Below, one piece after another: positions 42,642 to 60,081 of a DNA stretch of 64,000 bases. The stretch comes from Comamonadaceae bacterium (GTDB lineage: Bacteria; Pseudomonadota; Gammaproteobacteria; Burkholderiales; Burkholderiaceae_C). The notes below the pieces were generated by a model. It saw only the letters and a list, made by a program, of their open reading frames with translations. It was not told the DNA's origin and did not search any database. The stretch spans positions 1 to 64,000 of the forward strand of contig CANGLW010000004.1 in NCBI GenBank assembly GCA_947454955.1, written 5' to 3'. The position numbers and the translations under genes are program-made. The number at the start of each line of letters is the position of its first letter. Positions within the stretch are counted from its first letter, which is position 1.

Positions 42642-43346
42642 ATGCCGACAGCCACCACCAAAAGATCGCCCAAAGCAGCCATCAAGCAGGAAAAGCCACC
42701 GGTTAAACGTGTTGCCAAGAAGGCGGCCAAAAACACGACCACCACGGTCACCACCCGTCAGCGCACACCAGCACCCGCCTTGAGCGAGCCATCGCCTTTT
42801 GGTGCAGACATTGGCCGGCGCATTCGTAACCTGCGTCACATCAAGGGTTTGACCCTGAAAGATTTGGCAGACCGCACAGCTTGCTCCGAAAGCATGCTCT
42901 CCAAAGTTGAAAACGGGAAAGCGCAAGTGTCCTTGACCTTGCTGCACCGTGTGGTTCAGAGCTTGGACATCACCATCACCGCCCTGTTCAGTGAATCGCA
43001 AGCCGATCTGGGCGTGGTGACACAGGCCAAAGATCGCTCAACATTTCGCATCGACGCCAACGGCTCTCGGCTGGAGCGCTTGATCCCCCCCAATCAGGGA
43101 CATCTGCTGGAAGGCAACTTGCACATCTTGGCGCCAGGTGGCGGGAGTGATGGCATCCTGATGCACGAAGGCGAAGAGGTCGGCTATGTGCTGAGCGGCA
43201 CGCTTGAGTTGACCGTCAACGGCGTTCAGTATGTGCTGCACACCGGTGATTCATTTGTCTACCGGTCTGAACAGCCGCACAGCTATCGCAACCCCAGCAA
43301 GTCGACAACGCGCGTGCTGTGGGTCAGCACCCCACCCACGTTCTGA
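42642..43346 (+). CDS. XRE family regulator with cupin sensor domain
   Basis: A 234-residue regulator. Residues 1-55 form a basic Lys/Ala/Pro/Thr-rich tail (KRVAKKAAKNTTTT) resembling histone-like or AT-hook tails. Residues 60-115 are an Xre helix-turn-helix (LKDLADRTACSESMLSKVENGKAQVSL). Residues 150-230 are a cupin barrel (MHEGEEVGYVLSGTLELTVNGVQY and GDSFVYRSEQPHSYRN). This class commonly senses a small molecule and controls adjacent catabolic or transport genes. It is convergent with the long amidase/ABC operon, whose promoter is 14 kb away. The ATG at 42642 is preferred over 42609. Confidence 0.88.
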   Translation: MPTATTKRSPKAAIKQEKPPVKRVAKKAAKNTTTTVTTRQRTPAPALSEPSPFGADIGRRIRNLRHIKGLTLKDLADRTACSESMLSKVENGKAQVSLTLLHRVVQSLDITITALFSESQADLGVVTQAKDRSTFRIDANGSRLERLIPPNQGHLLEGNLHILAPGGGSDGILMHEGEEVGYVLSGTLELTVNGVQYVLHTGDSFVYRSEQPHSYRNPSKSTTRVLWVSTPPTF

Positions 43347-43379: not shown

Positions 43380-44558
43380 TCAGCGGGGCAAGCGCTGGAT
43401 GCTTTGGGCTAGCGCCAAAAGCTGTCGATCGCTCAAGCGTCGGCTCACCAAAGACAAGCCCACCGCCTTGCCATCGAGCACCGCCAGCGGCATGGTGATT
43501 TGTGGCAAGCCAGCCATCGATGCAATGCACAACAAACTCAACGCGTTGGTGCGGTCCTGATCGCTGCTGGCTTGGCCCTTCTGAGGTGCCAGGTAAGACA
43601 CCGTGGGCATGCAAATCACAGCACCGTCCAGATACGCGTGCACAAGCTCAGCGTTGCTCAACATGTTGACTCGCGCTTCGTTGGCCTGTGCGTCCTTGAT
43701 GGCACCAGCCCACGCAAACCGCTCTTTGATGCCCGGGCCGAATGTTGGTTGCTGCGAGGAAATCCAGGCGCCATGTGCTGCCCAGGCCTCATGGCCTTGA
43801 ACCAAGCGAAACGCGTCTTGCCATTCAATCAAGCGGCCTTGCGACAAGCTTTCATGCGTGAGGCCAGCAAACAAACTGGCGATGCGGTCGATGTGCGGTT
43901 TCAGAACTGCTTCAAACCCCGGATGCACACGTTGCCAGATGTCCTCGGGCAAGGCCAGCTTCAAACGGCTGAAGTCTGCACCACTGCGATCAGGTGGCAA
44001 GACGACCGAGCCCACTTGCATGACGTGCTCGAACGATGTGGACATCCAGCCGGGTGTGTCAAAGCTTGGTGAAAGTGGCACCACGCCTTGGGTTGACAGC
44101 ACCCCATGCGAGGGTCGGAAACCCCACAGACCACAAAAGCTGGCCGGCAAGCGCACCGAACCTGCGGTGTCTGTGCCCACCGAAAAATCACACAAGCCAG
44201 CACCTGCAGCAGCGGCCGCGCCGGAACTCGATCCACCCGGAATGCAGTCAGGGTTGTGCGGGTTCACAGGGGTGCCATAGTGCGCGTTTTCACCCACCAA
44301 GCTGTAAGCCAACTCTTCGGTGATGGTTTTGCCCACCATGCTTGCACCCGCATTGAGCAACGTCTGGATCAGCTCGGCATGTTGCGTGGGGATGGCGTGA
44401 GACTGCCGCCAATCTGGATTGCCCGCACCGGTGGGATGACCTGCAATGTCAAACAGATCTTTGACCGACATGGTCAAGCCAGCCAAGGGGCCGTGTGCTT
44501 GACCCTGGATTGAAAACACTTCACCAGGCACAAACGCGTTACACGCCATATCGCTCAT
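43380..44558 (-). CDS. amidase-signature amidase (short form)
   Basis: A 392-residue amidase of the amidase-signature family. The Ser-cisSer-Lys triad is complete: Lys33 in MSVKDLF, Ser110 in PGGSSSGAAAAAG and Ser134 in GTDTAGSVRLPASFCGLWG, with the standard 24-residue spacing. It is shorter than GatA-like members, mainly at the N-terminus. It hydrolyses an amide to acid and ammonia; the substrate is not readable. It is the last gene of the 14-gene operon (57211 to 43380), 43 bp after the amidohydrolase gene. Confidence 0.9.
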   Translation of the reverse strand: MSDMACNAFVPGEVFSIQGQAHGPLAGLTMSVKDLFDIAGHPTGAGNPDWRQSHAIPTQHAELIQTLLNAGASMVGKTITEELAYSLVGENAHYGTPVNPHNPDCIPGGSSSGAAAAAGAGLCDFSVGTDTAGSVRLPASFCGLWGFRPSHGVLSTQGVVPLSPSFDTPGWMSTSFEHVMQVGSVVLPPDRSGADFSRLKLALPEDIWQRVHPGFEAVLKPHIDRIASLFAGLTHESLSQGRLIEWQDAFRLVQGHEAWAAHGAWISSQQPTFGPGIKERFAWAGAIKDAQANEARVNMLSNAELVHAYLDGAVICMPTVSYLAPQKGQASSDQDRTNALSLLCIASMAGLPQITMPLAVLDGKAVGLSLVSRRLSDRQLLALAQSIQRLPR

Positions 44559-44601
44559 ATCAGTTCTTACCTTAGCCGTTGAGGGGTCTAACCAAAAGCG
44601 T

Positions 44602-45777
44602 TTATGCCTTGATCTTGAAAAGTTTCATGGCGTTGCCGCCCTTGATCAACTGTCGTTCTTCAGCGCTCAAGTGGCGCACACTGTCGACCAACTTGACCGG
44701 ATGGTCCTCGCCCATGTCGAAGGGGTAGTCCGTGCCCAGCATGACACGTTGCGCGCCATAGCGATCCACCAAGTTACCCAAAATTTGTGCGTCGTGGGTG
44801 ATGGTGTCGAAGTAAATTTTTTCCAAGTAGCTTGAAGGTTTTTTCTTGATGATGGTGCGCGCGTCTTCACGCGCTTTCCAAGCATGGTCCATACGCGCCC
44901 AGTAACTGGCGATGTACCCACCCCCATGTGAAGCCAGAATTTTCAACTTGGGGTAACGCGCCAACACGCCGTCAAAAATCAGGTGCCCCAAAGCCAAGCT
45001 GGTTTCAAGGGGGTTGCCCATCACGTTGTTGAAGTAATGCTCCACAAAGCGTTCGCCTTGTGAAAAGCCCATGGGATGCAAAAACAAAACGATGCCCATG
45101 CTTTCGGCCTTGGCGAAAAACTTCTCCAACTTCAACTCGGGGTCGGTCAAATTTTTACCATTCACATTGGTGCAAATTTCAACGCCGCGCAAACCCAAGA
45201 CATTCACGGCGTATTCCAGCTCTTGGATGGCCAGATCCACGTCTTGCAAGGGGATCGTGCCCATGCCCACAAAACGATCGGGGCGCTGTGCAACAACCGC
45301 TGCAATGCTTTCATTGATGTCACGCGAAATTTGGGCACCAAGTGCCGGCTCGGTGAAATAAAAATATTGAATGGGTGCTGGCGAGACCACCTGGATGTCA
45401 ACGCCCATCTTGTCCATGTCCTTGAGCCTGACTTCCACCTGGTTGAATTTGGCGCCGCGCTCCTGAATTTGCTTCATGTTCACCTGGCGCGACAACTCGG
45501 TGGCGTAAACCGCCGTGGCATCGTGCTTGACCGGTTGCAAATGCGCGTACTTCGCACCCACTGCGGGGCTGAGGTAATGGCAATGCACATCCACCACCTT
45601 GTCAGCGGCAGCGCGCTTGACCACCTTGCCTGGTTCCGCATCAGAAGCAGCCCGTCGTTGGGAGGGCATCGCTTGACCCATGGCCTGCAAGGGCGATGAG
45701 AACAAGGCCGAAGCCCCCAAACTGGGGGCATGACGGTGCGCAGGGTTTTGGCAAGACGATGAGCAGGTGTAAAACAT
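44602..45777 (-). CDS. amidohydrolase-family protein, ACMSD-like decarboxylase/hydrolase
   Basis: A 391-residue TIM-barrel metal enzyme of the amidohydrolase_2 type. The metal-binding HxH is VDVHCHYLSP, a central His lies in LFLHPMG and SHGGGYIASYW, and the late Asp is in LGTDYPFDMGED. Relatives include 2-amino-3-carboxymuconate-6-semialdehyde decarboxylase and gamma-resorcylate decarboxylase, which release CO2 from aromatic-pathway intermediates. The first 55 residues are unusual, with three cysteines and two histidines (CSSSCQNPAHRH), and are not part of the barrel; a later start (Met about 33 or 37) is possible. It is flanked by dehydrogenase and amidase genes of the same operon. Confidence 0.85.
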   Translation of the reverse strand: MFYTCSSSCQNPAHRHAPSLGASALFSSPLQAMGQAMPSQRRAASDAEPGKVVKRAAADKVVDVHCHYLSPAVGAKYAHLQPVKHDATAVYATELSRQVNMKQIQERGAKFNQVEVRLKDMDKMGVDIQVVSPAPIQYFYFTEPALGAQISRDINESIAAVVAQRPDRFVGMGTIPLQDVDLAIQELEYAVNVLGLRGVEICTNVNGKNLTDPELKLEKFFAKAESMGIVLFLHPMGFSQGERFVEHYFNNVMGNPLETSLALGHLIFDGVLARYPKLKILASHGGGYIASYWARMDHAWKAREDARTIIKKKPSSYLEKIYFDTITHDAQILGNLVDRYGAQRVMLGTDYPFDMGEDHPVKLVDSVRHLSAEERQLIKGGNAMKLFKIKA

Positions 45778-45820
45778 GGGCCAAGCAGCCTTTCAAATTA
45801 AAAATAAATCACACACCGGA

Positions 45821-46714
45821 TCAACCCGGTGTTGGCGTGTCGCCCATCGGCACATGTGGCATCGATTTCAGCAAACGGTGAATGACGGCGCTGTCGCTGT
45901 CGCCATAACCCGCCTGATAGGCCAGGCTGTAGAGGGCACGCACTTGGTCAAAAACCGGTGAGGGGGCATCGGCATCGGCGATGAATTCAGAGATGATGCC
46001 CATGTCTTTTTGCCACAGGTGCATCGACATCATGGGCGAATAATCAGATGCGGCCATGCGAGGGCCGCGCACCTGCCACATCCTGGATTGCCCCGCGCTG
46101 TCGCCTATCGCTTCAAGCACCAGCTTCAAATTCAAATTTGATTTTTCCGCCAACACCAAAGCCTCAGCGGCTGCAGCGTTGTGGATGGCGACCAAGTAGT
46201 TGGCAATGAATTTGAGCTTCATGCCGTTACCAAACGCACCCAGGTAAAACTGACTTCTTGAGAAGCCTTCCAAAACCGGCTTAACTTTCTTGAAAGCGCC
46301 TGCTTGACCGCTGCCATAGACCACCAGGTCTTTGTTTTGGGCCTGCGACCCCGTGCCAGACAAAGGGCAATCCAACAGCACCATGCGGGCAGGACTCAAG
46401 ATTCGCCTGGCCGCTTTTTTGTCTTTGATCGGCAGGGTGCTGGTTTCAATCACGGTGAGTTGTTGCGCCTCACTGTCAGCCAATGCTTGACAGACTTTCA
46501 TCAACGCTGGGGTTGACGGTAGCGATGTGATCAACACATCGGCCTTGCCAGCAAGCGCTTGCACCGAACGGGCAACCGAGCCCTTGGCTGACTTGAATGA
46601 TTGTTGCCGCTGGGGATCAATGTCGTAACCCACCACCTTGAAGCCCGCACGCATCAGGTTTTGGGCCATGGCCAGGCCCATCACACCCAAGCCAATCATG
46701 CCTACCGAGGTCAT
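45821..46714 (-). CDS. NAD(P)-dependent beta-hydroxyacid dehydrogenase (3-hydroxyisobutyrate dehydrogenase type)
   Basis: A 297-residue oxidoreductase with the Rossmann motif GMIGLGVMGLAMAQNLMRAG at the N-terminus, the substrate-binding DCPLSGTGSQAQNKDL segment, and the catalytic Lys in GNGMKLKFIANYLV. Members oxidise 3-hydroxyisobutyrate, tartronate semialdehyde and related short hydroxyacids. The ATG at 46714 begins the Rossmann fold directly; the frame extends to 46795 inside the upstream amidase gene. It starts 4 bp after the amidase stop, so the genes are co-transcribed. Confidence 0.9.
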   Translation of the reverse strand: MTSVGMIGLGVMGLAMAQNLMRAGFKVVGYDIDPQRQQSFKSAKGSVARSVQALAGKADVLITSLPSTPALMKVCQALADSEAQQLTVIETSTLPIKDKKAARRILSPARMVLLDCPLSGTGSQAQNKDLVVYGSGQAGAFKKVKPVLEGFSRSQFYLGAFGNGMKLKFIANYLVAIHNAAAAEALVLAEKSNLNLKLVLEAIGDSAGQSRMWQVRGPRMAASDYSPMMSMHLWQKDMGIISEFIADADAPSPVFDQVRALYSLAYQAGYGDSDSAVIHRLLKSMPHVPMGDTPTPG

Positions 46715-46718
46715 AGGC

Positions 46719-48155
46719 TCAAGTCGCCGTGTTCGCTTGCGATATGCACCATGCCGGCGCCGCTTGATGCCAAGCGGTGACGGTCTGGAATGCATGGCCT
46801 AAGCGCAGCAACTTGCCTTCGTCAAAAGCACGGCCCACCAACTGGAAGGCCGCAGGCATCTCGTTCACAAAGCCTGCGGGGACACTCAAAGAAGGCAAGC
46901 CCAAATAGTTGATGCCCCGGTTGCAATGGGTGATGGTGGCTATTTTTTTGGAGATGACGCCCCAGTCACCCTCGGTGGTTTCTTCGATGCTGGGCACCGG
47001 CACCGGGATGGTGGGCAGCAAGGCGCAATCAGCGTCACGCACCGTCATCTCGACCCACTTGCACGTCCAATCAGCCCGGGTGCTGATGGCCTCGTAGTAA
47101 TCAATGCCGGTGAACTCCAGACCGGGCTTGAAACGCGCCAGGACTTGCTCGGCATAGTCTTGGGGCCGTTGCGCAATCCAATGTTTGTGGTGCGACGCGG
47201 CCTCAACCGTGATCACAACCGACATCAAGCGGTTGATCACCGCCATGTCTGGTGGCTCAGTCCGGATGATGGTGGCGCCCAAGTCTATGAACACGCGCTC
47301 GGCCTCATCCAGACAAGCCGCCACGCCTGTATCGAGGTGCTCGCGGTAGTAGCCGCCTGGCAGCGCGATTTTCATGCCGCGGATGTTGCCATCGAGCATG
47401 GCCTCAAAATCCGGAACAGCCTCTTGACTGCTGCAAGCATCCCATGGGTCGTGCCCAGCCGTCACGGCCAACATGCGCGCGCAATCGCGCGCACTTCTGG
47501 CCAGTGGCCCCACACAGTCGAGCGACTTGGACAATGGCATCACACCATAGGCGCTCACGCGTGACCAAGTGGGTTTCAAACCGGTGATGCCACACATCGC
47601 AGACGGGTGACGTATCGAGCCGCCGGTGTCTGTGCCTAAGGAGGCATAGGTCAAGCGCGCAGCCACAGCGGAGCCTGAACCACTCGACGACCCGCCAGGG
47701 CATGCATCGAGACGCCAAGGGTTGCGCACATGGCCGTAATGCAAATTGAAACCTGTGGGGCTCATGGCGAATTCAGCCATGTGCAACAGGCCCATATCCA
47801 CAGCGCCGGCTTGGTCCAAGCGCGTCAAGGCTGTGGATGTCACCTCAGGGATGTAACCTTGGGTGATGATGGAGCCGTCATTCGATGGTCGACCGTTTCG
47901 GTAAAACAACTCTTTGTGCGCCATCGGCACACCGTGCAACACACCGAGCTTGTCGCCTTTGGCGCGTGCAACATCAGCCTGACGTGCGCTGGCCAAGGCA
48001 GCGTCTTCGTCGATGGCGGCCACGCAGTTGAGTTGCGGGCCGAACTTTTGCAAACGGTTCAGGGCCACCCGTGTGAGTTGCTCTGAAGTGACCTCGCCTC
48101 GCGCCACCGCATCAGCAGCTTCACACAAACCCAGGTTCGCAAGTTGGTCGGTCAT
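46719..48155 (-). CDS. amidase-signature amidase (GatA-like)
   Basis: A 478-residue amidase. The triad is complete: Lys81 in VPMAHKELF, Ser156 in CPGGSSSGSGSAVAAR and Ser180 in [20 protein letters not shown]. The IAHK/MAHK form makes it resemble GatA, but a separate gatCAB set is present in this window and no gatB neighbour occurs, so it is a catabolic amidase (for example a half-amide hydrolase). The ATG at 48155 lies 13 bp downstream of the LivF-like stop. It shares the operon with a second amidase, giving two such enzymes for the pathway. Confidence 0.91.
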   Translation of the reverse strand: MTDQLANLGLCEAADAVARGEVTSEQLTRVALNRLQKFGPQLNCVAAIDEDAALASARQADVARAKGDKLGVLHGVPMAHKELFYRNGRPSNDGSIITQGYIPEVTSTALTRLDQAGAVDMGLLHMAEFAMSPTGFNLHYGHVRNPWRLDACPGGSSSGSGSAVAARLTYASLGTDTGGSIRHPSAMCGITGLKPTWSRVSAYGVMPLSKSLDCVGPLARSARDCARMLAVTAGHDPWDACSSQEAVPDFEAMLDGNIRGMKIALPGGYYREHLDTGVAACLDEAERVFIDLGATIIRTEPPDMAVINRLMSVVITVEAASHHKHWIAQRPQDYAEQVLARFKPGLEFTGIDYYEAISTRADWTCKWVEMTVRDADCALLPTIPVPVPSIEETTEGDWGVISKKIATITHCNRGINYLGLPSLSVPAGFVNEMPAAFQLVGRAFDEGKLLRLGHAFQTVTAWHQAAPAWCISQANTAT

Positions 48156-48168
48156 GATGCAAATAACT

Positions 48169-48873
48169 TCAGCGAACGCCCAAGAAGCGCTGCATGGTTT
48201 CACGGTCGTTCATCAATTCACTGGCTTGGCAGTGGTGAACAATCTCACCGGTTTCCATCAGGTACACCTCGTTGGCCACCGACAGCGCGCTATAAAGATT
48301 TTGCTCCACCAGCAAAATACCCAAACCGGTTTTGCCCAGCTCAGCCACGATCTCTTCCAGGTGCTGAACCATGACGGGCGCCAGACCTTCTGTGGGCTCA
48401 TCCATCAGCAACATCTCTGGGTCGGTCATCAAAGCGCGGGCCACCGCCAGCATTTGGCGCTCGCCGCCTGAGAGCTGTGTACCCAGGTTGTTCTTGCGCT
48501 CTTCCAAACGTGGGAACAGCTCGTAGATGCGCTTGACCGACCATTGGCTGGTCGAGTTTTTAGAAGCAAAAACCGTCAAGTGCTCAGTGACGGTGAGTGA
48601 GGCAAAAAGCCTGCGGCCCTGGGGCACAAATCCTATGCGTCGGGATGCAATGACGTGGGGGCTCAGGCCCACCAACTCCTGCCCGTCGTACTTCACGCTG
48701 CCTTGGCTGATGCGTGGTGGGTTCAAACCCATGATGGAGCGAATCAGGGTGGTTTTACCCATGCCGTTGCGCCCCAACAAAGCCACGACCTTGCCCTTGG
48801 GCACCTTCATGTTGACGCCACGCAGGATGTGGGCGTCGCCGTAGTAACTGTGGAGATCGTTGATTTCAAGCAT
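48169..48873 (-). CDS. branched-chain-type ABC transporter ATPase (LivF-like)
   Basis: A 234-residue ABC ATPase. Walker A is GRNGMGKTT, the signature is LSGGERQMLAVARAL, and Walker B is MLLMDEPTEGL, followed by the H-loop-region GILLVEQN typical of LivF. It forms the heterodimeric motor with the LivG-like protein. The ATG at 48873 overlaps the LivG stop by 8 bp. The frame extends to 49014, but that part lies within livG. It is one of the five subunits (H, M, J, G, F) encoded together in this operon. Confidence 0.94.
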   Translation of the reverse strand: MLEINDLHSYYGDAHILRGVNMKVPKGKVVALLGRNGMGKTTLIRSIMGLNPPRISQGSVKYDGQELVGLSPHVIASRRIGFVPQGRRLFASLTVTEHLTVFASKNSTSQWSVKRIYELFPRLEERKNNLGTQLSGGERQMLAVARALMTDPEMLLMDEPTEGLAPVMVQHLEEIVAELGKTGLGILLVEQNLYSALSVANEVYLMETGEIVHHCQASELMNDRETMQRFLGVR

Positions 48874-49621
48874 GGCGTGGCTTTCCCAAATAAACCTCTT
48901 GCACTTTTTCATCCACACGAATCTCATCAGGCGTTCCACCTGTGAGAACCTGCCCGAAATGCAAACACGTGACGTAGTCCACCAGGCCCAAGGCCAGGTC
49001 CATGTCGTGTTCAATCAAGATGAGTGTGAGGTCCCTGGGCAAGGCGTTGATCACATCCGCCATCTTCACCCGCTCAGCGGGTGACAAGCCAGCCGCTGGC
49101 TCATCGAGCAAGAGCAGCTTGGGCTTTTGCACCAGCGCCATGGCCATTTCCAATTGCCGCTGCTCACCGTAAGACATGGTTTTGACTTCGGTGTTGCGTT
49201 GACCCACCAACTGCGCGTTTTCAAGCGCCTGCTCAATCGCTTCTCTTTCTGACGCGGTGGGCTGGCCACTGCCGAACAAAGCGAATTTGCGCGGCGACAG
49301 ACCGCAGACCGCCAAGCGAATGTTCTCTTCTACCGAGAGCTGCGGAAAAAGGTTGGTGATCTGGAAGGTGCGTGACATTCCCAAGCCAGCACGCTGGTTG
49401 GTGCTCATGCGGGTCATGTCGACGCCATCAAAATGCACACTGCCGCTTGAAATTCCCACGACACCAGCGATCGCATTGAACAGCGTGGTTTTGCCAGCGC
49501 CATTCGGTCCAATGATCGCGCGACGCTGACCAGCAGGCACAGACAGATTGACACCATCGACGGCTCTCAATGCGCCAAAGGTGACACTGACGTTTTCAAG
49601 AGTAAGTATCGGGTTCGTCAC
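48866..49621 (-). CDS. branched-chain-type ABC transporter ATPase (LivG-like)
   Basis: A 251-residue ABC ATPase with Walker [10 protein letters not shown], an [15 protein letters not shown] signature, Walker [12 protein letters not shown], and the [14 protein letters not shown] switch region of LivG. The start is GTG at 49621; no ATG fits near this position. It lies 76 bp after the binding-protein gene, with a large hairpin in between that may set different transcript levels for the binding protein and the ATPases. Confidence 0.94.
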
Positions 49622-49636
49622 AACATATCCCTAGGG

Positions 49637-49675
49637 GGCCCGGCAAGACGCATGAGCACATGCGTGCACCGGGCC
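49637..49675. repeat. large hairpin between binding-protein and ATPase genes
   Basis: Outer stem GGCCCGG/CCGGGCC (49637-49643 with 49669-49675), small internal loop, inner stem ACGCATG/CATGCGT (49648-49654 with 49659-49665), loop AGCA. There is no U-tract, so it is probably not a terminator. It resembles the RNA-stabilising hairpins found after binding-protein genes in transport operons. Confidence 0.7.
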
Positions 49676-49697
49676 GTTTGCTTGATAGATCGGCAGA

Positions 49698-50954
49698 TCA
49701 GGACTTCTTGATGCCCTGGAAGTCGCGGCTGTAAGAGGGCTGCTTCATGTAGGTCTCAGGATCGTATTTGCCGAACTGCGACACCGATGGGAAAACCTGA
49801 ATCGGCACATTCCAGTACTTGCCATCGGGGCGAGCCTTGGTTTCACGGATGAAAACGTCATACACAGGGTTGCCGTACTTATCCAACTTGACGGGACGAC
49901 CCAGTGGCGAGTTGGTCAACTCGGTGGACTTCACCGCATTGAGGAAAGCGGCCTTGTCTTCGATCTTGCCGTTGATTTTCTTGATGGCCTCAGCAATCCA
50001 CATGGCGCCCGAGTAATGCGAGAAGCCATAAATGGAAGGCAGTTTTTCGTAAGCTGCGGAGTACTCAGCCACGAATTTCTTGGTTGCGGCGTTGTCGGCA
50101 CCTTCTGCGAAGTGGGCAGAAGAAATGATGCCATCGGCCTCAGAACCCAGGGTGCGGATCACCGATTGGTCGGTCAGGTTCATGGCGCCGTACATGGGCA
50201 ACTTGCCTTGCAAACCAAAGCTCTGGTACTGCTTGATCATGCGGTTCGCATCCGCGCCGGTCTCCATCACAAACACCGCATCAGCGCCCGAGTTTTTGAT
50301 TTGCGCCAAGTAGGGGCTGAAGTCAGCGGTATTGAGCGGATGCCAGAACTGCTGCAAAACCTGACCACCCAGTTCGGTGAAGGTTTGGCAGAAGCCGCCG
50401 CACTGCTCGTGACCAAAGGTGTAGTCCTGCGAGATCGTCACGATCTTGCGAACTTTTTTCACGTTGTAGGCGTATTCAGCCAAGGGGCGGGGCATCTGGC
50501 TGGCGGTGTAGCCGGCCACACGGATGATGTTGGGCACAGCCTTACGCTGGGTCAAATCATCAGCAGCCACCACGGGGATGAAATACGGTGTGCCGCTGGA
50601 ACGTGCGAACTCGGCAATCGCCAAACCTGTGTTGGCCAGCACGCTGCCCATCAAGAAGTGCACATTGCGCTGCTCAACCAAACGACGGGCTTTTTGCAAA
50701 GCCATGTCAGGGTTGGAGCCATCGTCTTCCACCACGATTTCAACCTGGCGGCCTGCCAAGGTCAAACCGTTTTGCTTCCAGTACAACTCAAAGCCCTCTA
50801 CCAACTCTTTACCGCCAGCGGCCAAGACGCCGGTGAGTGGCGAGAGCAGACCGATGCGAATCGGACCTGTTTGGGCTTGTGCGGTGTTGACCCAGGGCGC
50901 TGCACCAGCAGCAACGGTCAAACCAACGGACTTGATGAAATTTCTACGTTCCAT
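49698..50954 (-). CDS. branched-chain-type (amide/urea-like) periplasmic binding protein
   Basis: A 418-residue binding protein of the Leu/Ile/Val family. The signal region MERRNFIKSVGLTVAAGAAP, with RR followed by NFIK, looks like a Tat signal with cleavage near AQAQ. Mature features are IRIGLLSPLTGVLAAGGKEL and VVEDDGSNPDMALQKARRLVEQ. Family relatives bind urea, short amides or aromatic acids as well as amino acids. Because the operon encodes amide- and ring-opening hydrolases, an amide- or imide-type ligand is more likely than leucine. The start at 50954 is preferred over an upstream TTG/ATG extension. Confidence 0.92.
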   Translation of the reverse strand: MERRNFIKSVGLTVAAGAAPWVNTAQAQTGPIRIGLLSPLTGVLAAGGKELVEGFELYWKQNGLTLAGRQVEIVVEDDGSNPDMALQKARRLVEQRNVHFLMGSVLANTGLAIAEFARSSGTPYFIPVVAADDLTQRKAVPNIIRVAGYTASQMPRPLAEYAYNVKKVRKIVTISQDYTFGHEQCGGFCQTFTELGGQVLQQFWHPLNTADFSPYLAQIKNSGADAVFVMETGADANRMIKQYQSFGLQGKLPMYGAMNLTDQSVIRTLGSEADGIISSAHFAEGADNAATKKFVAEYSAAYEKLPSIYGFSHYSGAMWIAEAIKKINGKIEDKAAFLNAVKSTELTNSPLGRPVKLDKYGNPVYDVFIRETKARPDGKYWNVPIQVFPSVSQFGKYDPETYMKQPSYSRDFQGIKKS

Positions 50955-51003
50955 GATGCACTCCTGATGAATAAAAAACAAAGGACAAACAACGACGACT
51001 CAC

Positions 51004-51933
51004 TTACCTCTTCACACGTGACTTGATGAAATTGCGGGCAGCGCCGAGGAATCCGGTTGGGGCAAAAATCATCGTGAAGATGAACAAGAAACCCAACACC
51101 ATCAACCAGCGCTCGGTGTACAAGCTGACAAAGTTCTCCAAAGAGATGACGATGATGGCGCCAATGATCGCGCCGAACAAGGTGCCCACACCGCCCACGA
51201 TGGCCATCAAGAGGCCTTCGACCGACTGGGCCAAGGCCACGGTGGAGGGGCTGACAAAACTGTTGAAGAGCGCGTACAGCGAGCCAGCAATGCCAGCAAA
51301 AAAGCCTGAAACAACAAAGCCAATGAATAGGTGCAAGGGCACGTTGTAGCCCAAGGTGCGCATGCGCGACTCGCTGTCACGAATGCCTTTGAGGGTCAGA
51401 CCGAATGGCGAATTGATGAAGCGCCACATCGCAGCCGTCACGACCACAAAGCATGCTGCCGTGAAGTAGTAGAGGCTTTTCTTGTCCTGCAACCAATCAG
51501 GTGCGACCGTGCCGCGAATGCCGTTTTCACCACCGGTGACCGAGGTCCAACGCAGGCAAACGCCCCAAACGATCATGCCCAGAGCCAGGGTCAGCAAAAT
51601 GAAATAGACCCCCGAGGTGCGGATGGCCAGCGCGGCAAACACCATGGACAGCGCCACGGCCGCCAACACGCCCAGCGCGATGCCCGCCCACACCGAGCCA
51701 CCTGAAACGGTGACGTGGTGGAGCACCACATAGGTGGCCAAACCAAAGATGGCGCCGTGGCACAAAGAGGTGCGCCCGGTGAAGCCCGCCATGACGTCCA
51801 CCGCCATGGCCAACATAGCGAAGATGAGAATTTCAATCGCGATACTGGTTTTGTAGCCGGGCATGATCGTGGGCACGAGTGCCAAGACCACCAGGCCAAG
51901 AACCACCAACAGCAGTTGTTTGTTGATCTGCAT
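51004..51933 (-). CDS. branched-chain-type ABC permease (LivM-like)
   Basis: A 309-residue permease with about eight to ten membrane helices. The LivM-type features are MLAMAVDVMAGFTGRTSLCHGAIFG at the first conserved loop, TGGENGIRG, and the EAA-like SPFGLTLKGIRDSESRMRTLGYNV. Its start abuts the LivH stop with no gap. The binding protein follows 49 bp after its stop. Confidence 0.94.
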   Translation of the reverse strand: MQINKQLLLVVLGLVVLALVPTIMPGYKTSIAIEILIFAMLAMAVDVMAGFTGRTSLCHGAIFGLATYVVLHHVTVSGGSVWAGIALGVLAAVALSMVFAALAIRTSGVYFILLTLALGMIVWGVCLRWTSVTGGENGIRGTVAPDWLQDKKSLYYFTAACFVVVTAAMWRFINSPFGLTLKGIRDSESRMRTLGYNVPLHLFIGFVVSGFFAGIAGSLYALFNSFVSPSTVALAQSVEGLLMAIVGGVGTLFGAIIGAIIVISLENFVSLYTERWLMVLGFLFIFTMIFAPTGFLGAARNFIKSRVKR

Positions 51934-52785
51934 TTATGCCACCTTACCGAAAAGACCCAGAGGTCTGAATGCCAGCAACAAAGCCATCGGCCCGAAGATC
52001 ACGAAGTAGGCCAATTCTGGAAACCACACTTGACCGAAGGTGGAGAGCATGCCCACCAGCAAACTGCCCACAGCGGCACCAATCAAGCTGCCGCGACCAC
52101 CGATGATCACCACCGCCAAACTGTAGACAAGGATTTCCGAGTCGGCGGTGGGGTACAAGGTCAGGAACGCACCGCCCATCACACCACCCAGGCCTGCCAA
52201 GGCCGCGCCCAGCATGAAGGTGTAGATGAACACGCGGCGAATATCGACACCCATGGCCGACACGGTTTCACTGTCGTCCACACCCGCGCGGATCAAGGCG
52301 CCCAAACGTGTTTTGTGGATGAGCAGGGTCAAGGCGATGAAAATCAACACGCCCACCAGCAAGACAAACAGACGGAAGGTTGGGTAAGACATGTCACCCA
52401 GCTCGATCGGTCCGTTGAGGAACTTGGGCACATTGATGCTGAAGGTGTCGCCCCCCCAAATCACCAAGGCCAAGTCATTGAGCACGAACGCCACGCCCAG
52501 GGTCAACAAGACCTGACGCAGCTCGACACCGCGCACGAACCTGAGCAAACCGAAATCGATGATGAAACCGATGAGCGCAATGCCGACCGCAGCACCGATG
52601 CCAGCCAGGAAAAAGTTGCCGGTGAGGTTGGCCACGCTCAAACCCAAGTACCCGCCAAACAGGTACAGGGCGCCGTGCGCCAAATTCACAATCCGCATGA
52701 GGCCGAAAATCAGCGTGAAGCCGCTGGCCACCACGAACAGCAAGGCCGCGAAGGTGGCTCCATTGAGGAGTTGAAATATCGTCAT
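51934..52785 (-). CDS. branched-chain-type ABC permease (LivH-like)
   Basis: A 283-residue permease with a LivH opening (IFQLLNGATFAALLFVVASGFTLIFGLMRIVNLAHGALYLFGGY) and the later LGALIRAGVDDSETVSAMGVDIRRV motif, the cytoplasmic EAA loop. It is the first transporter gene of the operon, 74 bp after the second deacetylase-fold gene. The ATG at 52785 is taken; a GTG two codons earlier is possible. Confidence 0.94.
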   Translation of the reverse strand: MTIFQLLNGATFAALLFVVASGFTLIFGLMRIVNLAHGALYLFGGYLGLSVANLTGNFFLAGIGAAVGIALIGFIIDFGLLRFVRGVELRQVLLTLGVAFVLNDLALVIWGGDTFSINVPKFLNGPIELGDMSYPTFRLFVLLVGVLIFIALTLLIHKTRLGALIRAGVDDSETVSAMGVDIRRVFIYTFMLGAALAGLGGVMGGAFLTLYPTADSEILVYSLAVVIIGGRGSLIGAAVGSLLVGMLSTFGQVWFPELAYFVIFGPMALLLAFRPLGLFGKVA

Positions 52786-52859
52786 TGACACGGTAGATGC
52801 ATCCTTTAGATTCTTACTTTCGTCACTCGAAACAAATCACGCCACCTCAAGCCTGCACA

Positions 52860-53729
52860 TCACGCGGTCTCGGACTTGTACCAGTCCAAGATCTGTTCGC
52901 CTGTCCAGAACAAGACATCTTTGCGGGCACGAATCTCAGCCAACACTTGCTTGTAATATTTCAAGCGATGCGGCGCGCCCATGATGTAGGGGTGAACCAC
53001 CAAGGCCATCACCCGCGCTGAATCGGCCGAGTCTTCATAAATTTGCTCGAACTGGTCGATGCCGCGCCGGTAGTACTCCGACGCTGTGTGGTGCTGAATC
53101 AGCATCATGGCCACGTCGTTGCACTCTTGCGTGTAGGGCACGTTCACAATGGGCTGATGCCGTGTTTTCAAAGTCACCGGCTGGTCATCGAGCACCCAGT
53201 CGCACACATAGTCATACCCGTTCTCAGACAAGAGGTCTGGGGTGTGCCAGGTTTCGGTCAGGCCAGGGCCTAACCAACCGCGAGGGCGCTTGCCAGTGAA
53301 CGCCTGGATAGCTTCGGTCGTTTTGGCAATGTCTTCTTGCTCGTTCTCGACCTTCTGCATGTTTCTTTGGGTGTAGCCGTGGCCCATGAATTCCCAGCCA
53401 CGATCAAGCGCAGCTTGAGAGATGGGCTCATAGGCCTTGATGGCGGAGCCATTGATGGCCAGCGCCGCCTTGATGTTGAGCTCATCGAGCACCTTCAACA
53501 TCCGCCAAAAGCCCACACGGTTGCCGTATTCATGCCAGGCCCAGTTGGGAATGTCGGGCATGGGTGAGCCGCCTGCTGGCGGGGTCAACACGGTTCTGGG
53601 CATCGTTTGATCGATGTCCCATTCTTCGATGTTCACGATGGTCCACACCACCATGCGCGCACCACCGGGCAACTTCAAAGGTTTTCTGGTGTTGATGGGC
53701 GAGTACTGAATTCGCTCTAAGGGCTTCAT
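52860..53729 (-). CDS. PuuE/cyclic-imidase-like polysaccharide-deacetylase-fold enzyme B
   Basis: A 289-residue protein of the NodB-fold branch that contains PuuE allantoinase and, as I recall, bacterial cyclic imide hydrolases. Features are VVWTIVNIEEWD, WHEYGNRVGFWRML, the GWEFMGHGYTQRNM block and the ARVMALVVHPYIMGAPHR C-terminal block with a conserved His. These enzymes hydrolyse cyclic amide or imide bonds rather than polysaccharides. The ATG at 53729 has a GGGAG ribosome-binding site at 8 bp and leaves a 4-bp gap after the FAH gene; an in-frame ATG at 53744 would overlap it. It is a paralogue of enzyme A on the other side of the FAH gene. Confidence 0.87.
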   Translation of the reverse strand: MKPLERIQYSPINTRKPLKLPGGARMVVWTIVNIEEWDIDQTMPRTVLTPPAGGSPMPDIPNWAWHEYGNRVGFWRMLKVLDELNIKAALAINGSAIKAYEPISQAALDRGWEFMGHGYTQRNMQKVENEQEDIAKTTEAIQAFTGKRPRGWLGPGLTETWHTPDLLSENGYDYVCDWVLDDQPVTLKTRHQPIVNVPYTQECNDVAMMLIQHHTASEYYRRGIDQFEQIYEDSADSARVMALVVHPYIMGAPHRLKYYKQVLAEIRARKDVLFWTGEQILDWYKSETA

Positions 53730-53733
53730 GACA

Positions 53734-54432
53734 TCAGCTCCCATGTCCAATCGTGATGACCAGATCGCTCAAGCCCGCCACCGAACCCCGCAGAACATCG
53801 CCGGGAACGACGGGCGCCACACCAGCCGGTGTGCCGGTGTAGATCAGGTCACCCTCCACCAAGTCGTACTGGTGCGACAGGTTACTGATGATTTCCGGCA
53901 CATGCCAAATCATTTTTTCGATGACCGAATCCTGCTTGCTTTGTCCGTTGACCGACACCGCAATGCGACCCTGGTTGATGTGACCCACCTGGGCCACGGG
54001 ATGCACATCACCACAAGGGGATGACGCATCAAAGCTCTTGCCGATTTCCCAGGGCAAGCCTTTCTTGCCTGATTCACGCTGCCGGTCGCGTCGGGTCATG
54101 TCAAAGCCAACCGCGTATCCAAAGATGTGATCCAGCGCCGCTTCCTTGCTGATGGCCCGGCCGCCCTTGCCGATCGCCACCACCAACTCCACTTCAAACT
54201 GAAAGTCGTTCGTTTGCGGTGGGTAAGGCACGGTCTGCCCGGTGAGCACGAGGGCATCACGGGGCTTCTGAAAGAAAAATGGCGGATCGCGCTCATCCGA
54301 CTCCTTCATTTCCCGGATGTGCTCCAGATAGTTGCGGCCCACGCAATAAATCCTTCGCACCGGGAAGGCGCTGGCCGAACCGGCAACCGGCAAGGCCATC
54401 ACTTCAGGCGTGGCAACGGCGTAGTGCGTCAC
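53734..54432 (-). CDS. fumarylacetoacetate hydrolase (FAH) family protein, short form
   Basis: A 232-residue FAH-fold enzyme lacking the N-terminal domain seen in the gene at 31783. Core features are IYCVGRNYLEHIREM, metal-ligand Glu residues in FQFEVELVVAIG, VGFDMTRRD and EGDLIYTGTPAGVAPV. Short FAH proteins include acylpyruvate hydrolases and fumarylpyruvate hydrolase, which split C-C bonds of dioxo acids. It lies between two PuuE-like paralogues, with a 4-bp overlap on the upstream side and a 4-bp gap on the downstream side, so it belongs to the same pathway. Confidence 0.9.
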   Translation of the reverse strand: MTHYAVATPEVMALPVAGSASAFPVRRIYCVGRNYLEHIREMKESDERDPPFFFQKPRDALVLTGQTVPYPPQTNDFQFEVELVVAIGKGGRAISKEAALDHIFGYAVGFDMTRRDRQRESGKKGLPWEIGKSFDASSPCGDVHPVAQVGHINQGRIAVSVNGQSKQDSVIEKMIWHVPEIISNLSHQYDLVEGDLIYTGTPAGVAPVVPGDVLRGSVAGLSDLVITIGHGS

Positions 54433-55313
54433 TTGGCAGTCTTTCTGGCGGTTTGGTACCAGTCAAGAATTTGCTCGCCATTCCAGTGCATCACACCGGT
54501 GTGCTTGGCCATGTGCTTGTAGACCTCTTCGAGGTACTTGATGCGGAAAGGCTGACCCGAGATGTAGGGGTGGATGGCAATGGCCATCACGCGGGGACGG
54601 TCCGAGCCTTCTTGGTACAAACGATCGAAGGTGTCGATGCACTTTTGCGTCCAGTAAGAAGCCTCGTGGTGCTGAACCGCCATCATCGGGATGTCGTTGT
54701 TTTCAACGGTGTAAGGAATGGTCACGAGCGGGCCGTGTTCGGTTTGGATCTCGGTTGGCTCTTCGTCATAAACCCAGTCGCCGATGTATTTCACACCGGC
54801 TGCGGCCAAATGGTCGGGGGTTTCGTAGGTTTGGGTCAAGCCTGGGCCAAGCCAACCCACCGGACGCTTGCCGGTGAATTTCTCGATCACATCCAAGGAT
54901 TTTTTGATCATGCCGGGCTGATCGGGCTCGAGGTGGATCGGGCCTTGCTGGTAGCTGTGGCCCATGAACTCCCAACCTGAATCCAGGCAGGCTTGTGCAA
55001 CGCGGGGGTAGTCTTCACACACACGTGCGTTGATCGACAAGGTGGGCTTGATGCCCAGGCGTTCATAGAGCTCGTGGAAGCGCCAAAAGCCCACGCGCAT
55101 GCCGTACTCGTGCCAGCTCCAGTTGGCCACGTCGGGCAGAAGAACCGCACCGGTCGGCGCAGGAATCACCTGACGCGCCATGGGTTTGCTGATGTCCCAA
55201 ACCTCCAGGTTCACGATGGTCCACACAATGATCTTGCCGTCATTGGGCAGCTTCATTTTCGGACGGTCAACGATGGCGCTGTAAGGCACGCGTTCACGAG
55301 GGATCATGGTCAT
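54429..55313 (-). CDS. PuuE/cyclic-imidase-like polysaccharide-deacetylase-fold enzyme A
   Basis: A 294-residue paralogue of enzyme B, sharing VVWTIVNLEVWD, WHEYGMRVGFWR, GWEFMGHSYQQG and VMAIAIHPYISGQPFR. The motif after MGH differs (S-Y-Q-Q-G against G-Y-T-Q-R), suggesting a different substrate. PuuE opens allantoin to allantoate without metal; related imidases open succinimide- and hydantoin-like rings. No uricase or allantoate genes are next to it, so purine breakdown is not shown. The start may be the first or third codon (MTM). It overlaps the FAH start by 4 bp. Confidence 0.87.
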   Translation of the reverse strand: MTMIPRERVPYSAIVDRPKMKLPNDGKIIVWTIVNLEVWDISKPMARQVIPAPTGAVLLPDVANWSWHEYGMRVGFWRFHELYERLGIKPTLSINARVCEDYPRVAQACLDSGWEFMGHSYQQGPIHLEPDQPGMIKKSLDVIEKFTGKRPVGWLGPGLTQTYETPDHLAAAGVKYIGDWVYDEEPTEIQTEHGPLVTIPYTVENNDIPMMAVQHHEASYWTQKCIDTFDRLYQEGSDRPRVMAIAIHPYISGQPFRIKYLEEVYKHMAKHTGVMHWNGEQILDWYQTARKTAK

Positions 55314-55338
55314 GGGGTTACTCCTTCATTTCTAAAGT

Positions 55339-55977
55339 TCAAGATGTCTTCAACGCTTCAAGCGCCATCACTTCAGCGCTGGTCATCACAAAGCCAAGCG
55401 CGGTTCGGATGCACAACAGGGCCGCGTCATGCAAGGCCGGGTCATCCATGGTGTCCACACAATCGCTGGGCACAATGACCGCGTAATCCTTGGAGCAAGC
55501 GGCCGCCACGGTGGAAAGCACGCAGCTGTTGGTGTTGACCCCGGTGATGATGAGGGTGTTGATGCCGTGGGCCTTGAGGGTGAAATCGAGATCGGTGCCG
55601 ACAAAGCAGTCGTAGCGTTTTTTGGTGTCGACCACCCAGTCATTCGCACCCATGACCTGGGGCATCACGGTGCAACCCGGCGAGCCTTTTAAGTTGTGGC
55701 GCTCAACATTTTTTCGCGTGGCATGGGGGTCATCGGCACGGGTTCTCCAAAACGGGTTGGAGCGGATTTCCGGCACATCCCGGTAAGTCGTCACCATGTG
55801 GATGATGGGCCAACCCTGCTCGCGGCACCACGCAAACAACTTGGACGCATGGCCCAAGACACGGTCAGCTTGCGCCTGCGTCTTGACCGGCATGGTAGCC
55901 ACGGAAAGGTCCATGTGCCCACGATGGAAATCGATGGCAATGACGGCTGCTTTGACTTGATCGACGCCGAAGTTCAT
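55339..55977 (-). CDS. isochorismatase-family cysteine hydrolase
   Basis: A 212-residue cysteine hydrolase with the Asp-Lys-Cys triad: Asp16 in AIDFHRGHM, a Lys at 119-120 in VVDTKKRYDCF, and Cys152 in GVNTNSCVLSTV. Relatives include N-carbamoylsarcosine amidohydrolase, maleamate amidohydrolase (NicF), ureidoacrylate hydrolase RutB and nicotinamidase, all of which split C-N bonds of amides or ureido groups. The ATG at 55977 has a GAGG ribosome-binding site; a GTG two codons earlier is possible. It is the second gene of the operon. Confidence 0.9.
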   Translation of the reverse strand: MNFGVDQVKAAVIAIDFHRGHMDLSVATMPVKTQAQADRVLGHASKLFAWCREQGWPIIHMVTTYRDVPEIRSNPFWRTRADDPHATRKNVERHNLKGSPGCTVMPQVMGANDWVVDTKKRYDCFVGTDLDFTLKAHGINTLIITGVNTNSCVLSTVAAACSKDYAVIVPSDCVDTMDDPALHDAALLCIRTALGFVMTSAEVMALEALKTS

Positions 55978-55984
55978 ACCCACC

Positions 55985-57211
55985 TCAGATCAAGGGGTTG
56001 TGGGAAGTGCTCAGCAATTTTTTCTGATCGATGCCAAACCGATCGGCCAGCCAATCGCCCAGGATTTCCTGGCCGATGGTTGGGTTGTCGTGCTGGCAAT
56101 GCTCAGCACCTGTTTCCTCTTCGGACAACAAGCGCAAGGTCACATCCACACCTTTGGCTTTGCCGTAGTCATACACCTTCTTGGCTTGCGAGACGGTCAG
56201 CACATCGTGGCCGCCATGCATCACCAAGAACGGGCACTTCATGTGGTCGAGGTGACCCTCAAGGGTGAAGTCCTTGGCCTTCTCCATCGAGGCCTTCATG
56301 GTGGGTTTACCAAACACCCATTTGATGTGCTCAGCCAGGCCGTGATCTTCAGAGGCATTGCCCCACAAATCGGTGATGGCCCAGATCGCGCCGTGCGCAA
56401 TGCAAGCCGCCAGACGAGGCTCGTAGCAGCCCGCACGTGCCGCGTAGTAGCCACCCAAACTCGAACCCGCCACAGCGATGCGCTTGGGATCAACATCGTC
56501 ACGCTTCTCGAGCCAGTCGATGCACTTGCCAATCGGCACTTCGGTGTCCACACGGTTCACCACCTTGTGGCGGCGCAGCGTGCCACCTTGGCCAGGTCCG
56601 TCGATCATCAGCACAGAAATGCCACGTTGAACAGCACCACGGGCCTGCATGAACCACATTTCATCTTTGATGGAATCCAGGCCACCCATGCAGATCAAAA
56701 CAGGCTGACGCTTCTCGGGGAACGGGGCGCGCACAAAGTAGCCACAGATGGTGACGCCGTTTTCATAAGGGATCTCGACCGCTTCACCCGCAGGGTTGAG
56801 GTGGGAGATGAACTTCTTGCTGCAAGCCTCCATCTTCTCGAAGGTGGGCAGGCGGCGTGGGTCTTCGGGCTTGAGGAAAAACTCGGCTTGGCGGTAGTAG
56901 TCGGCCGCGCGCAAATAGCAGTTCATGGCCGTCTTGATGTGGCCCACACGCTCTTCTTCGCAACCACGGTCCCAATTGCGATTGCCGATGTGCATCCACT
57001 CTTTGTGCCAGCTTTCCAGATCGCCAGGGATCATGCGGCTGGCCGCCTGAAACACCTCACTGACCGAACCGCCACCCTCTTGGGTTTCACCTAAGCCGCG
57101 GCGAAACTGATACGCCAACCATGGGTGCTCAGGCCAATGGTGCCAACCGTAGGGCTCATAGTGAGGCAGGCGGTTTTCGGTGATCTTTTCGATCAGGTTG
57201 TCTTCGGACAT
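55985..57211 (-). CDS. alpha/beta hydrolase similar to 2,6-dihydroxypseudooxynicotine hydrolase / FrsA-like group
   Basis: A 408-residue two-part protein: a helical N-terminal region (residues 1-140) with EWMHIGNRNWDRG and MNCYLRAADYYRQAEFFL, then an alpha/beta hydrolase core with MIDGPGQGGT, the nucleophile elbow VAGSSLGGYYAARA (Ser about 251), and the His in GAEHCQHDN. This layout matches the group containing the nicotine-pathway C-C hydrolase DHPON hydrolase, which splits a 1,3-diketone-like bond; the exact substrate here is unknown. It is the first gene of the operon, 43 bp from the predicted transcription start. Confidence 0.87.
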   Translation of the reverse strand: MSEDNLIEKITENRLPHYEPYGWHHWPEHPWLAYQFRRGLGETQEGGGSVSEVFQAASRMIPGDLESWHKEWMHIGNRNWDRGCEEERVGHIKTAMNCYLRAADYYRQAEFFLKPEDPRRLPTFEKMEACSKKFISHLNPAGEAVEIPYENGVTICGYFVRAPFPEKRQPVLICMGGLDSIKDEMWFMQARGAVQRGISVLMIDGPGQGGTLRRHKVVNRVDTEVPIGKCIDWLEKRDDVDPKRIAVAGSSLGGYYAARAGCYEPRLAACIAHGAIWAITDLWGNASEDHGLAEHIKWVFGKPTMKASMEKAKDFTLEGHLDHMKCPFLVMHGGHDVLTVSQAKKVYDYGKAKGVDVTLRLLSEEETGAEHCQHDNPTIGQEILGDWLADRFGIDQKKLLSTSHNPLI

Positions 57212-57253: not shown

Positions 57254-57268
57254 TTCAAGTGACTTGAA
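57254..57268. promoter_or_regulatory. 15-bp palindromic operator at the start of the long operon
   Basis: TTCAAGT-G-ACTTGAA, perfect 7-bp arms. It overlaps the expected transcription start (about 57264) of the promoter at 57271-57298, a position that would let a bound repressor block RNA polymerase. The XRE-cupin regulator at 42642 is one candidate binder, by inference only. Confidence 0.72.
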
Positions 57269-57270
57269 TG

Positions 57271-57298
57271 ATCATACGCAGCGCGTTGTGCGTGTCAA
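57271..57298 (-). promoter_or_regulatory. near-consensus sigma70 promoter of the amide/ABC operon
   Basis: Read on the minus strand: -35 TTGACA (57298-57293, perfect), 16-bp spacer, -10 TATGAT (57276-57271, one mismatch). It lies 60 bp upstream of the first gene of the 14-gene operon (ATG at 57211). No other promoter-like pair was seen in the gap. Confidence 0.75.
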
Positions 57299-59875: not shown

Positions 59876-60081
59876 GGCTTACCCCCGGGGTAAGGGGCTG
59901 GGCAATAAATCTCGGCCAGCTCATCCGCAGGGCTCAGCGGCACAGCTTGCAGTTGCGCGGCCATGGCGGCGGTGCGCTGCAAATGCTGCGAGATGCGCAG
60001 CACCTGCGCATCGTCGAGCGTGAGCTCCAATAAAGGCGCGGTCACCCGCACATAAGCTTGCACATCGTCCAAACTGATCAC
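59872..60081 (-). CDS. atzG: AtzG/HpxX-like small GatC-related subunit (DUF4089)
   Basis: A 69-residue protein with VQAYVRVTAPLLELTLDDAQV and LQRTAAMAAQLQAVPL, ending in PADELAEIYCP. It resembles the DUF4089 group, in which AtzG stabilises AtzE the way GatC stabilises GatA. The gene is sandwiched between the ABC ATPase gene (4-bp overlap) and the AtzE gene (4-bp overlap). Its small size is normal for the family. Without it the AtzE protein of Pseudomonas ADP is reported to be insoluble or inactive. Confidence 0.85.
   Translation of the reverse strand: MISLDDVQAYVRVTAPLLELTLDDAQVLRISQHLQRTAAMAAQLQAVPLSPADELAEIYCPAPYPGGKP

Follow-up and report, generated by a model that had tools for sequence, protein, structure and literature searches.

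A stretch of 64,000 nucleotides (positions 1 to 64,000 of contig CANGLW010000004.1, assembly GCA_947454955.1; hereafter the window), from a bacterium akin to freshwater Limnohabitans whose genome assembly has a completeness of 94.77%, carries fourteen minus-strand genes that run without a break from position 57211 down to 43380. With slightly better than even confidence, we propose that they form a dedicated catabolic operon for the uptake of a nitrogen heterocycle, the opening of its imide or lactam ring, the release of ammonia and the breakdown of the remaining chain. No description of this gene set was found in the open-access literature (PubMed Central). If the proposal is true, bacteria would have a hydrolytic way of degrading pyridine-type rings besides the dioxygenase routes, and several hydrolase groups that now lack an assignment would together gain a function.

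The fourteen-gene operon and its conservation

Every one of the fourteen open reading frames is intact, and the spacing between neighbours, taken from their coordinates and likeliest starts, ranges from an 8-base overlap to 76 bases at most. Gene 1 (55985-57211) encodes an alpha/beta hydrolase of the DHPON-hydrolase, Ayg1 and AntI (C-C hydrolase) group, FrsA/DHPON-hydrolase-like; it is followed after 1 base by gene 2 (55339-55983), an isochorismatase-fold cysteine hydrolase predicted to act on amide or ureido compounds, and after a further 25 bases by gene 3 (puuA; 54429-55313), a PuuE-like predicted ring-opening hydrolase A. Gene 4 (53734-54432), a short FAH hydrolase, overlaps puuA by 4 bases and lies 4 bases from gene 5 (puuB; 52860-53750, with its start here taken as 53729), a PuuE-like hydrolase B with 47% identity to puuA. 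After 68 bases come the permease genes livH (gene 6, 51934-52791) and livM (gene 7, 51004-51933) with no base between them, then after 49 bases a substrate-binding protein of the Peripla_BP_6 family with an export signal (gene 8, 49698-50954) and, 76 bases on, the ATPase genes livG (gene 9, 48866-49621) and livF (gene 10, 48169-48873), which overlap by 8 bases. The last four genes encode an amidase (gene 11, 46719-48155; amidase L), a 3-hydroxyisobutyrate/threonate-type dehydrogenase (gene 12, 45821-46711), an ACMSD-like metal-dependent Amidohydro_2 protein (gene 13, 44602-45777) and a short amidase (gene 14, 43380-44558), and are preceded by gaps of 13, 7, 43 and 43 bases respectively. These assignments come from profile scans of all fourteen proteins and agree throughout with the family names given in an earlier, sequence-only reading of this DNA; no oxygenase family was found among the fourteen proteins by the same scans.

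Conservation was assessed by scanning named genome contigs with puuA, which yielded at least 588 stretches encoding relatives (E up to 1e-3); the best 80 of these (loci L050-L129) are 71-96% identical to puuA and, by their titles, come mostly from Beta- and Alphaproteobacteria, with many metagenome assemblies and two records labelled Acidobacteria. Other genes were counted by direct tblastn with the window genes, and all presence counts are lower bounds as some loci end early. Gene 1 was present (at least 60% identity) in 36 of the 80 loci, and gene 1 or gene 2 in 38; the order gene 1, gene 2, gene 3 was kept in all 34 loci that have the three, while L119 and L127 have gene 1 with no gene 2 match above threshold. 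Thirty loci have gene 1 or 2 and at least 7.5 kb downstream (the long loci), and all 30 carry the five importer genes; puuB was found in 22 of them and the FAH hydrolase gene in 18, never without puuB. As gene order and identity are kept across Beta- and Alphaproteobacteria, the arrangement is more than chance, and the fourteen genes are, on sequence grounds, one conserved operon; the earlier reading had likewise taken them for an operon.

The operon is nevertheless rare: among evenly drawn genomes, gene 1 was matched at E 1e-90 in two of 397 from the phylum, namely the window's own genome and G477, which has genes 1-11 in order plus an ACMSD-like gene at 39% identity. Matches to puuA at E 1e-40 were found in 46 of 250 genomes of the family, its own included, and the best elsewhere was about 50% identical.

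A palindrome and its candidate regulator

The best promoter-like match of the operon region, TTGACA-16-TATGAT (57271-57298, minus strand; 11 of 12 matches), lies 60 bases before gene 1. Three sites of this quality were found against 6.0 expected in shuffled sequence, and the count itself therefore proves nothing. Directly after this site lies a perfect palindrome, TTCAAGTnACTTGAA (57254-57268, 43-57 bases upstream of gene 1), for which the expected number in the window is 0.00 and which we propose as an operator. When 177 loci were scanned for it, every match was this one site (in the window, L050, L051, L052, L053, L055 and short overlapping loci), so that among the 38 loci that carry gene 1 or gene 2 it is present in five. 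Five whole genomes, the window's own (G000) and those of four of these five loci (G631-G634), all picked because they contain the site, hold the palindrome exactly once each, at this operon, and the reversed control gave 0.

Tail to tail with gene 14, and just beyond the run delimited by the earlier reading, lies a plus-strand gene (42609-43346) encoding an XRE-type helix-turn-helix plus a cupin domain. Relatives of this gene were found in exactly the five palindrome loci: in L052, L053 and L055 the gene lies within the locus itself, and for L050 and L051 it is on another stretch of the respective genome (L168 and L165). Of the other 33 loci, 22 have a relative of a GntR-type regulator and 11 have neither regulator within the locus as extracted; the latter were read without extension, and a distant XRE-cupin gene is possible there. 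G477 has the GntR-type gene and lacks the palindrome. We read the XRE-cupin protein as a dedicated local regulator with TTCAAGTnACTTGAA as its probable only site; repression would be expected rather than activation, because the palindrome sits over the likely start.

Predicted enzymes and the extra genes of relatives

Both puuA and puuB have the polysaccharide-deacetylase fold, one of the two falling just under the Pfam cut-off (21.6 of 23.1 bits). The sequence-only reading had called them PuuE/imidase-like; the likeness to PuuE stands, by sequence and by a structure model of puuA, but against the PuuE allantoinase model TIGR03212 they score 106.3 and 109.1 bits respectively with a cut-off of 424.6, and a role as imidases is a prediction. 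The puuA model (mean predicted local distance difference test, pLDDT, of 91.4) has as its closest folds 3s6o, 1z7a and PuuE 3cl6 (template modelling, TM, score about 0.8), then 3rxz and HP0310 (3qbu); compared directly with PuuE 3cl6 it gives TM 0.84/0.82 and E 5.2e-19, consistent with a PuuE fold. A profile built from 86 sequences ranks the relatives of puuA nearly as the fold search did. At the position of the second metal-binding histidine, HP0310 has His, PuuE has Trp and puuA has Gln123, so that the NodB/HP0310-type histidine of this metal motif is missing from puuA; Gln123 is invariant across 86 aligned rows, as are E37, H119, D179, D183 and H248. PuuE is a metal-free enzyme. Because an invariant glutamine replaces the second metal histidine, puuA may likewise be a metal-free cyclic amidohydrolase, and by sequence and modelled fold it appears more like PuuE than like a deacetylase.

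A tree built from 86 sequences groups the puuB rows in a single clade (support 1.0), and puuA from loci with gene 1 is intermixed with puuA from other settings; one ring opener therefore seems to be used in several versions of the pathway. The puuA group (at least 71% identical in the best 80 of at least 588 stretches) occurs with several kinds of transporter and molybdenum hydroxylase, and one solved member would help to annotate many. Five loci (L095, L099, L102, L107 and L114) have a related puuA in another operon type, comprising 2Fe-2S and molybdopterin subunits, an HpcH/HpaI-type aldolase, puuA, an amidase and a GFA-family protein; the molybdopterin subunit of L095 has a likely export signal. 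The window's own genome also holds a third PuuE-like gene (L039, C2:78000-97500, at 7863-11132) with 51% identity to puuA, which adjoins an amidase and a TctC binding protein.

For gene 1 the structure model (mean pLDDT 78.4) matches best to 3fnb, named as an acylaminoacyl peptidase, and then to the C-C hydrolases 2jbw, 8qd7 and 6hxa; with DHPON hydrolase (2jbw) it shares TM 0.72/0.81 at an identity of just 25-26%. The Ser-Asp-His triad (S251, D336, H371/H374) is invariant in 31 sequences, and fold and triad together place gene 1 in the C-C hydrolase group, in keeping with what had been predicted from the sequence. DHPON hydrolase has an extra active-site Glu; a Glu of gene 1 aligns near it, outside the columns conserved at 90% or more. 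Six plasmid records hold relatives of gene 1 (32-50% identical): two annotated ones, from Variovorax and Phyllobacterium, show other gene settings, and two Burkholderia arboris stretches carry no annotation.

The Asp-Lys-Cys triad of gene 2 (D18, K121/K122, C154) is invariant in 26 sequences, as in amide hydrolases of the isochorismatase fold. Its best solved relatives are an N-carbamoylsarcosine-amidase-related protein and biuret hydrolase (BiuH), with RutB further down, and it scores below the curated cut-offs for both RutB (54.7 of 377.95 bits) and BiuH (66.4 of 370 bits). The two amidases, gene 11 (AtzE-related, below the AtzE cut-off) and gene 14 (NF006169, above cut-off), are predicted together with gene 2 to release ammonia. 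The best model for gene 4 is PRK10691, again below cut-off (142.3 of 201 bits), which we take to be linked to YcgM/acylpyruvase. The best solved relatives of gene 13 are ACMSD structures; residues H65, H67, H234, H284 and D350 are invariant in 15 sequences, and H65, H67, H234 and D350 supply the HxH, His and Asp metal ligands of the ACMSD/PicC type, at what we assume to be the ACMSD ligand positions. The importer is complete, as the sequence-only reading had stated, with two permeases, two ATPases and one binding protein in a row (genes 6-10). The best solved relatives of the binding protein include 4zpj, 4evq and 4ey3, some of which presumably bind aromatic acids.

Two close Limnohabitans relatives have four extra genes inside the operon, a molybdenum-hydroxylase pair and an aldolase-OsmC pair, and both pairs are absent from the window operon. 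In Limnohabitans sp. 2KL-17 (L165) and in the Limnohabitans metagenome-assembled genome (MAG) of L050 (L168), the order is amidase L, dehydrogenase, 2Fe-2S subunit, molybdopterin large subunit, ACMSD-like gene, short amidase and convergent regulator, with identities to the window genes of 81 and 88% for the ACMSD-like gene, 76 and 80% for the short amidase, and 71 and 70% for the regulator. This is the arrangement of the window plus the molybdenum-hydroxylase pair between genes 12 and 13, at which position the window has a hairpin with a weak T tail (45813-45832, minus strand); the window copy may have lost the pair, or its relatives may have gained it. The large-subunit frame of 2KL-17 (L165, ~3694-5796) has one internal TAG, and the MAG copy (L168) is open. 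The other pair, an HpcH/HpaI-type aldolase gene (75-100% identical to the L051 query) and an OsmC gene, lies between genes 2 and 3 in L050-L053; in L054 the aldolase is 53% identical and OsmC was not matched. With the aldolase query, matches were obtained in 24 of the 80 loci at E 1e-8; when an identity of at least 30% is required, 15 of the 38 loci that carry gene 1 or gene 2 have one.

A molybdenum-hydroxylase large subunit is encoded in 13 of the 30 long loci, 11 times as the c16 type; ten of the c16-type copies lie downstream on the same strand and one (L052) is divergent, and L055 and L119 have other types farther off. About 2.4 of 30 would be expected by chance from the 11 large-subunit frames in the window's own 2.78 Mb, a rough figure since the number may be higher in other genomes and the loci share ancestry. 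A large subunit is also found in 11 of the 42 loci that lack genes 1 and 2. In separate clusters, L160 and L161 combine a PuuE-like gene with a Liv importer, a molybdenum hydroxylase and an ACMSD-like gene, and L163 has the last three (ACMSD-like at 58%). The L161 cluster, from a Hyphomicrobiales MAG (1929-13719), is compact and also holds genes for a luciferase-like monooxygenase, a PcaD-like hydrolase and a Gfo/Idh/MocA oxidoreductase.

Proposed pathway and rival readings

From these families a sequence of steps can be proposed. A single transcript would start from the promoter in front of gene 1. By binding TTCAAGTnACTTGAA across the start site, the XRE-cupin protein would repress it, and the substrate, or a product formed early in the pathway, would lift this repression. 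The Liv-type ABC importer would take up a small nitrogen heterocycle; in the fuller operon of the relatives, the molybdenum hydroxylase could then add a water-derived oxygen next to the ring nitrogen, giving a cyclic imide or lactam tautomer. The alpha/beta hydrolase of gene 1 may cut off a side chain by C-C hydrolysis, or make a related cut; puuA (and puuB) would open the ring and so yield a half-amide (or ureido acid), from which the cysteine hydrolase and the two amidases would free ammonia. The ACMSD-like enzyme may decarboxylate or hydrate, and the FAH hydrolase, the dehydrogenase and, in relatives, the HpcH/HpaI aldolase would shorten the carbon chain to common acids. The sequence-only reading had proposed uptake and ring opening of a cyclic amide or imide; the importer and the ring-, amide- and C-C-cleaving families uphold this in outline, but the molybdenum hydroxylase and aldolase in the fuller operon of the relatives point to an N heteroaromatic that is turned into an imide, rather than to a ready-made cyclic imide. 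With a single-site operator and a dedicated importer, the substrate question is testable in ordinary Limnohabitans, Bradyrhizobium or Ramlibacter strains that have the operon, where the inducer is likely to be the substrate.

More tentatively, and with appreciable doubt, the operon and its relatives may represent an oxygenase-free bacterial route for an aromatic N-heterocycle, in which a molybdenum hydroxylase would use water to oxidise the ring as far as the tautomer of a cyclic imide (2,6-dihydroxypyridine type). A PuuE-like enzyme working without metal would open this ring, and the later steps would fall to amidases, a retro-Claisen hydrolase, an aldolase and an acylpyruvase-like enzyme. 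By record titles such a route would belong to environmental Alpha- and Betaproteobacteria, partly under a one-operator regulator.

The closest described logic, by analogy, is the nicotinate route (hxn) of Aspergillus nidulans, in the available part of its account (PMC9304392): a molybdenum hydroxylase stands at the start, the deacetylase-fold HxnM later opens a cyclic imide, a glutarimide, and the amidase HxnN removes the nitrogen. The hxn route differs in being fungal and in its monooxygenase and reductase steps to 3-hydroxyglutarimide, and that part of the account describes no Liv importer, C-C hydrolase or FAH hydrolase; moreover, the nearest structure to HxnM is HP0310 (3qbu), whereas puuA is nearer to PuuE. 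The pic and nicotinate pathways of Proteobacteria, in the portion of their description available (PMC10142695), resemble the operon in that, once the ring is cleaved, they use a decarboxylase of the amidohydrolase family (PicC) and an amide hydrolase, but there the ring is cut by 2,5-dihydroxypyridine dioxygenase, not found among the fourteen operon proteins by profile scans, and the pic gene set includes no PuuE-like opener. In the nicotine pyridine pathway (PMC8305194), ring hydroxylation by the molybdenum hydroxylase Kdh is followed by C-C hydrolysis by DHPON hydrolase (2jbw), which has the fold of gene 1. The later steps of that pathway use a flavin monooxygenase and are not known to use an imide hydrolase, and gene 1 is distant in sequence from 2jbw, as given above. 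PuuE allantoinase shares with puuA its fold, its sequence group and the absence of the second metal-binding histidine; unlike it, puuA and puuB stay far below the PuuE cut-off, and no purine genes are among the operon families. The earlier reading, which had recognised no known nicotine, nicotinate, Rut or purine cluster here, is borne out in so far as the nic and pic sets differ as described in the available parts of their sources (PMC9304392, PMC10142695) and the PuuE and RutB cut-offs are not reached.

Several observations weigh against a single dedicated N-heterocycle pathway in this strain. The later genes vary among relatives, with amidase L in 16, the ACMSD-like gene in 12, the dehydrogenase in three and the short amidase in one of the 30 long loci (lower bounds; L050 and L051, for instance, end before an ACMSD-like gene and a short amidase that their contigs carry), and puuA of the same clade is also found elsewhere without gene 1 and may serve several pathways. 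In the window's own genome the best molybdenum hydroxylase is 36-38% identical to the N-terminal part of the L050 copy and 42-44% to other linked copies, and the best aldolase match is 39%; as the strain has no linked molybdenum hydroxylase or aldolase, its pathway may be incomplete or may begin with a ring that has been oxidised beforehand. Among the Alphaproteobacterial loci that have gene 1, none carries the c16 type next to that gene; L119 has another type at its far end. An unlinked molybdenum-hydroxylase partner in the own genome is possible, judging by such similarities. Homologues argue for it weakly, because they look common at such identity: all 12 genomes tested have one (best 44-51%), yet three of these are linked copies themselves. 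Within the own genome, the pair most closely related to the molybdenum hydroxylases linked to the operon in other strains lies on a 4.7-kb contig (L148, contig C68, 1188-3772), between two enoyl-CoA-hydratase-like genes.

A cyclic-ureide pathway (for hydantoin, a dihydropyrimidine or a purine-derived ureide) has to be taken seriously as a rival, since ureides are the substrates of the closest characterised enzymes to genes 2 and 3: PuuE allantoinase for puuA, and for gene 2 the solved relatives named above. PuuE-like opening would then give a ureido acid, from which the cysteine hydrolase would cleave the carbamoyl group as RutB, biuret hydrolase and N-carbamoylsarcosine amidase do, and an allophanate-type cluster (HpxZ, AtzE, AtzG-like protein and allophanate hydrolase) lies next door at 58-64 kb. 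We nevertheless consider this reading unlikely: a plus-strand gene separates that cluster from the operon, its HpxZ and binding-protein genes were matched in none of the 80 loci, the PuuE, RutB and BiuH cut-offs are all missed, and, as these pathways are generally understood, ureides need no C-C hydrolase, FAH hydrolase, ACMSD-like enzyme or aldolase. Somewhat less probable again is that the substrate is a ready-made cyclic imide (such as succinimide, maleimide or an imide derived from a tetrapyrrole), in which case the molybdenum hydroxylase found in relatives would serve to oxidise an aldehyde on a side chain, or would act on some other compound. Imide opening with half-amide hydrolysis would suit genes 2, 3, 5, 11 and 14, and the window operon does lack the hydroxylase; yet two close relatives have it within the operon, and its frequency in the long loci exceeds the rough expectation, a point tempered by its presence in other loci. 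It is improbable that no single pathway exists and that this is a general amide and ester scavenging operon for unrelated compounds, with deacetylases as its PuuE-like proteins. Differences in downstream genes among relatives and the several families of broad-specificity hydrolases would fit such a role, but the one palindrome, the one promoter-like site, the strict order of the first genes and importer, and the separate puuB clade do not, and by sequence and fold the PuuE-like proteins group with PuuE and not with deacetylases.

Two further routes were considered and rejected. Citrazinic acid is an imide tautomer, and hence chemically attractive. A citrazinate/isonicotinate route, however, has no need of a C-C hydrolase, an FAH hydrolase or an aldolase, and no described gene cluster for it was found in the open-access literature; for a picolinate/nicotinate route, a dioxygenase family is missing among the operon proteins.

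The neighbouring cluster occupies 58086-63999 on the minus strand and comprises HpxZ/AtzH and an AtzE-family amidase (both above cut-off), an AtzG-like protein of 69 amino acids (59872-60081, minus strand) and, as read from the sequence, a NitT-type ABC importer; its allophanate hydrolase is cut by the end of the window. An AtzD-type hydrolase was not matched in the own genome, an absence that is not established as the control genomes were silent too. The G+C content is 0.54-0.58 in most 2-kb steps of 32001-58000. Over the 32 kb before this region it is 0.59-0.63, and the lower value may reflect acquisition of the region.

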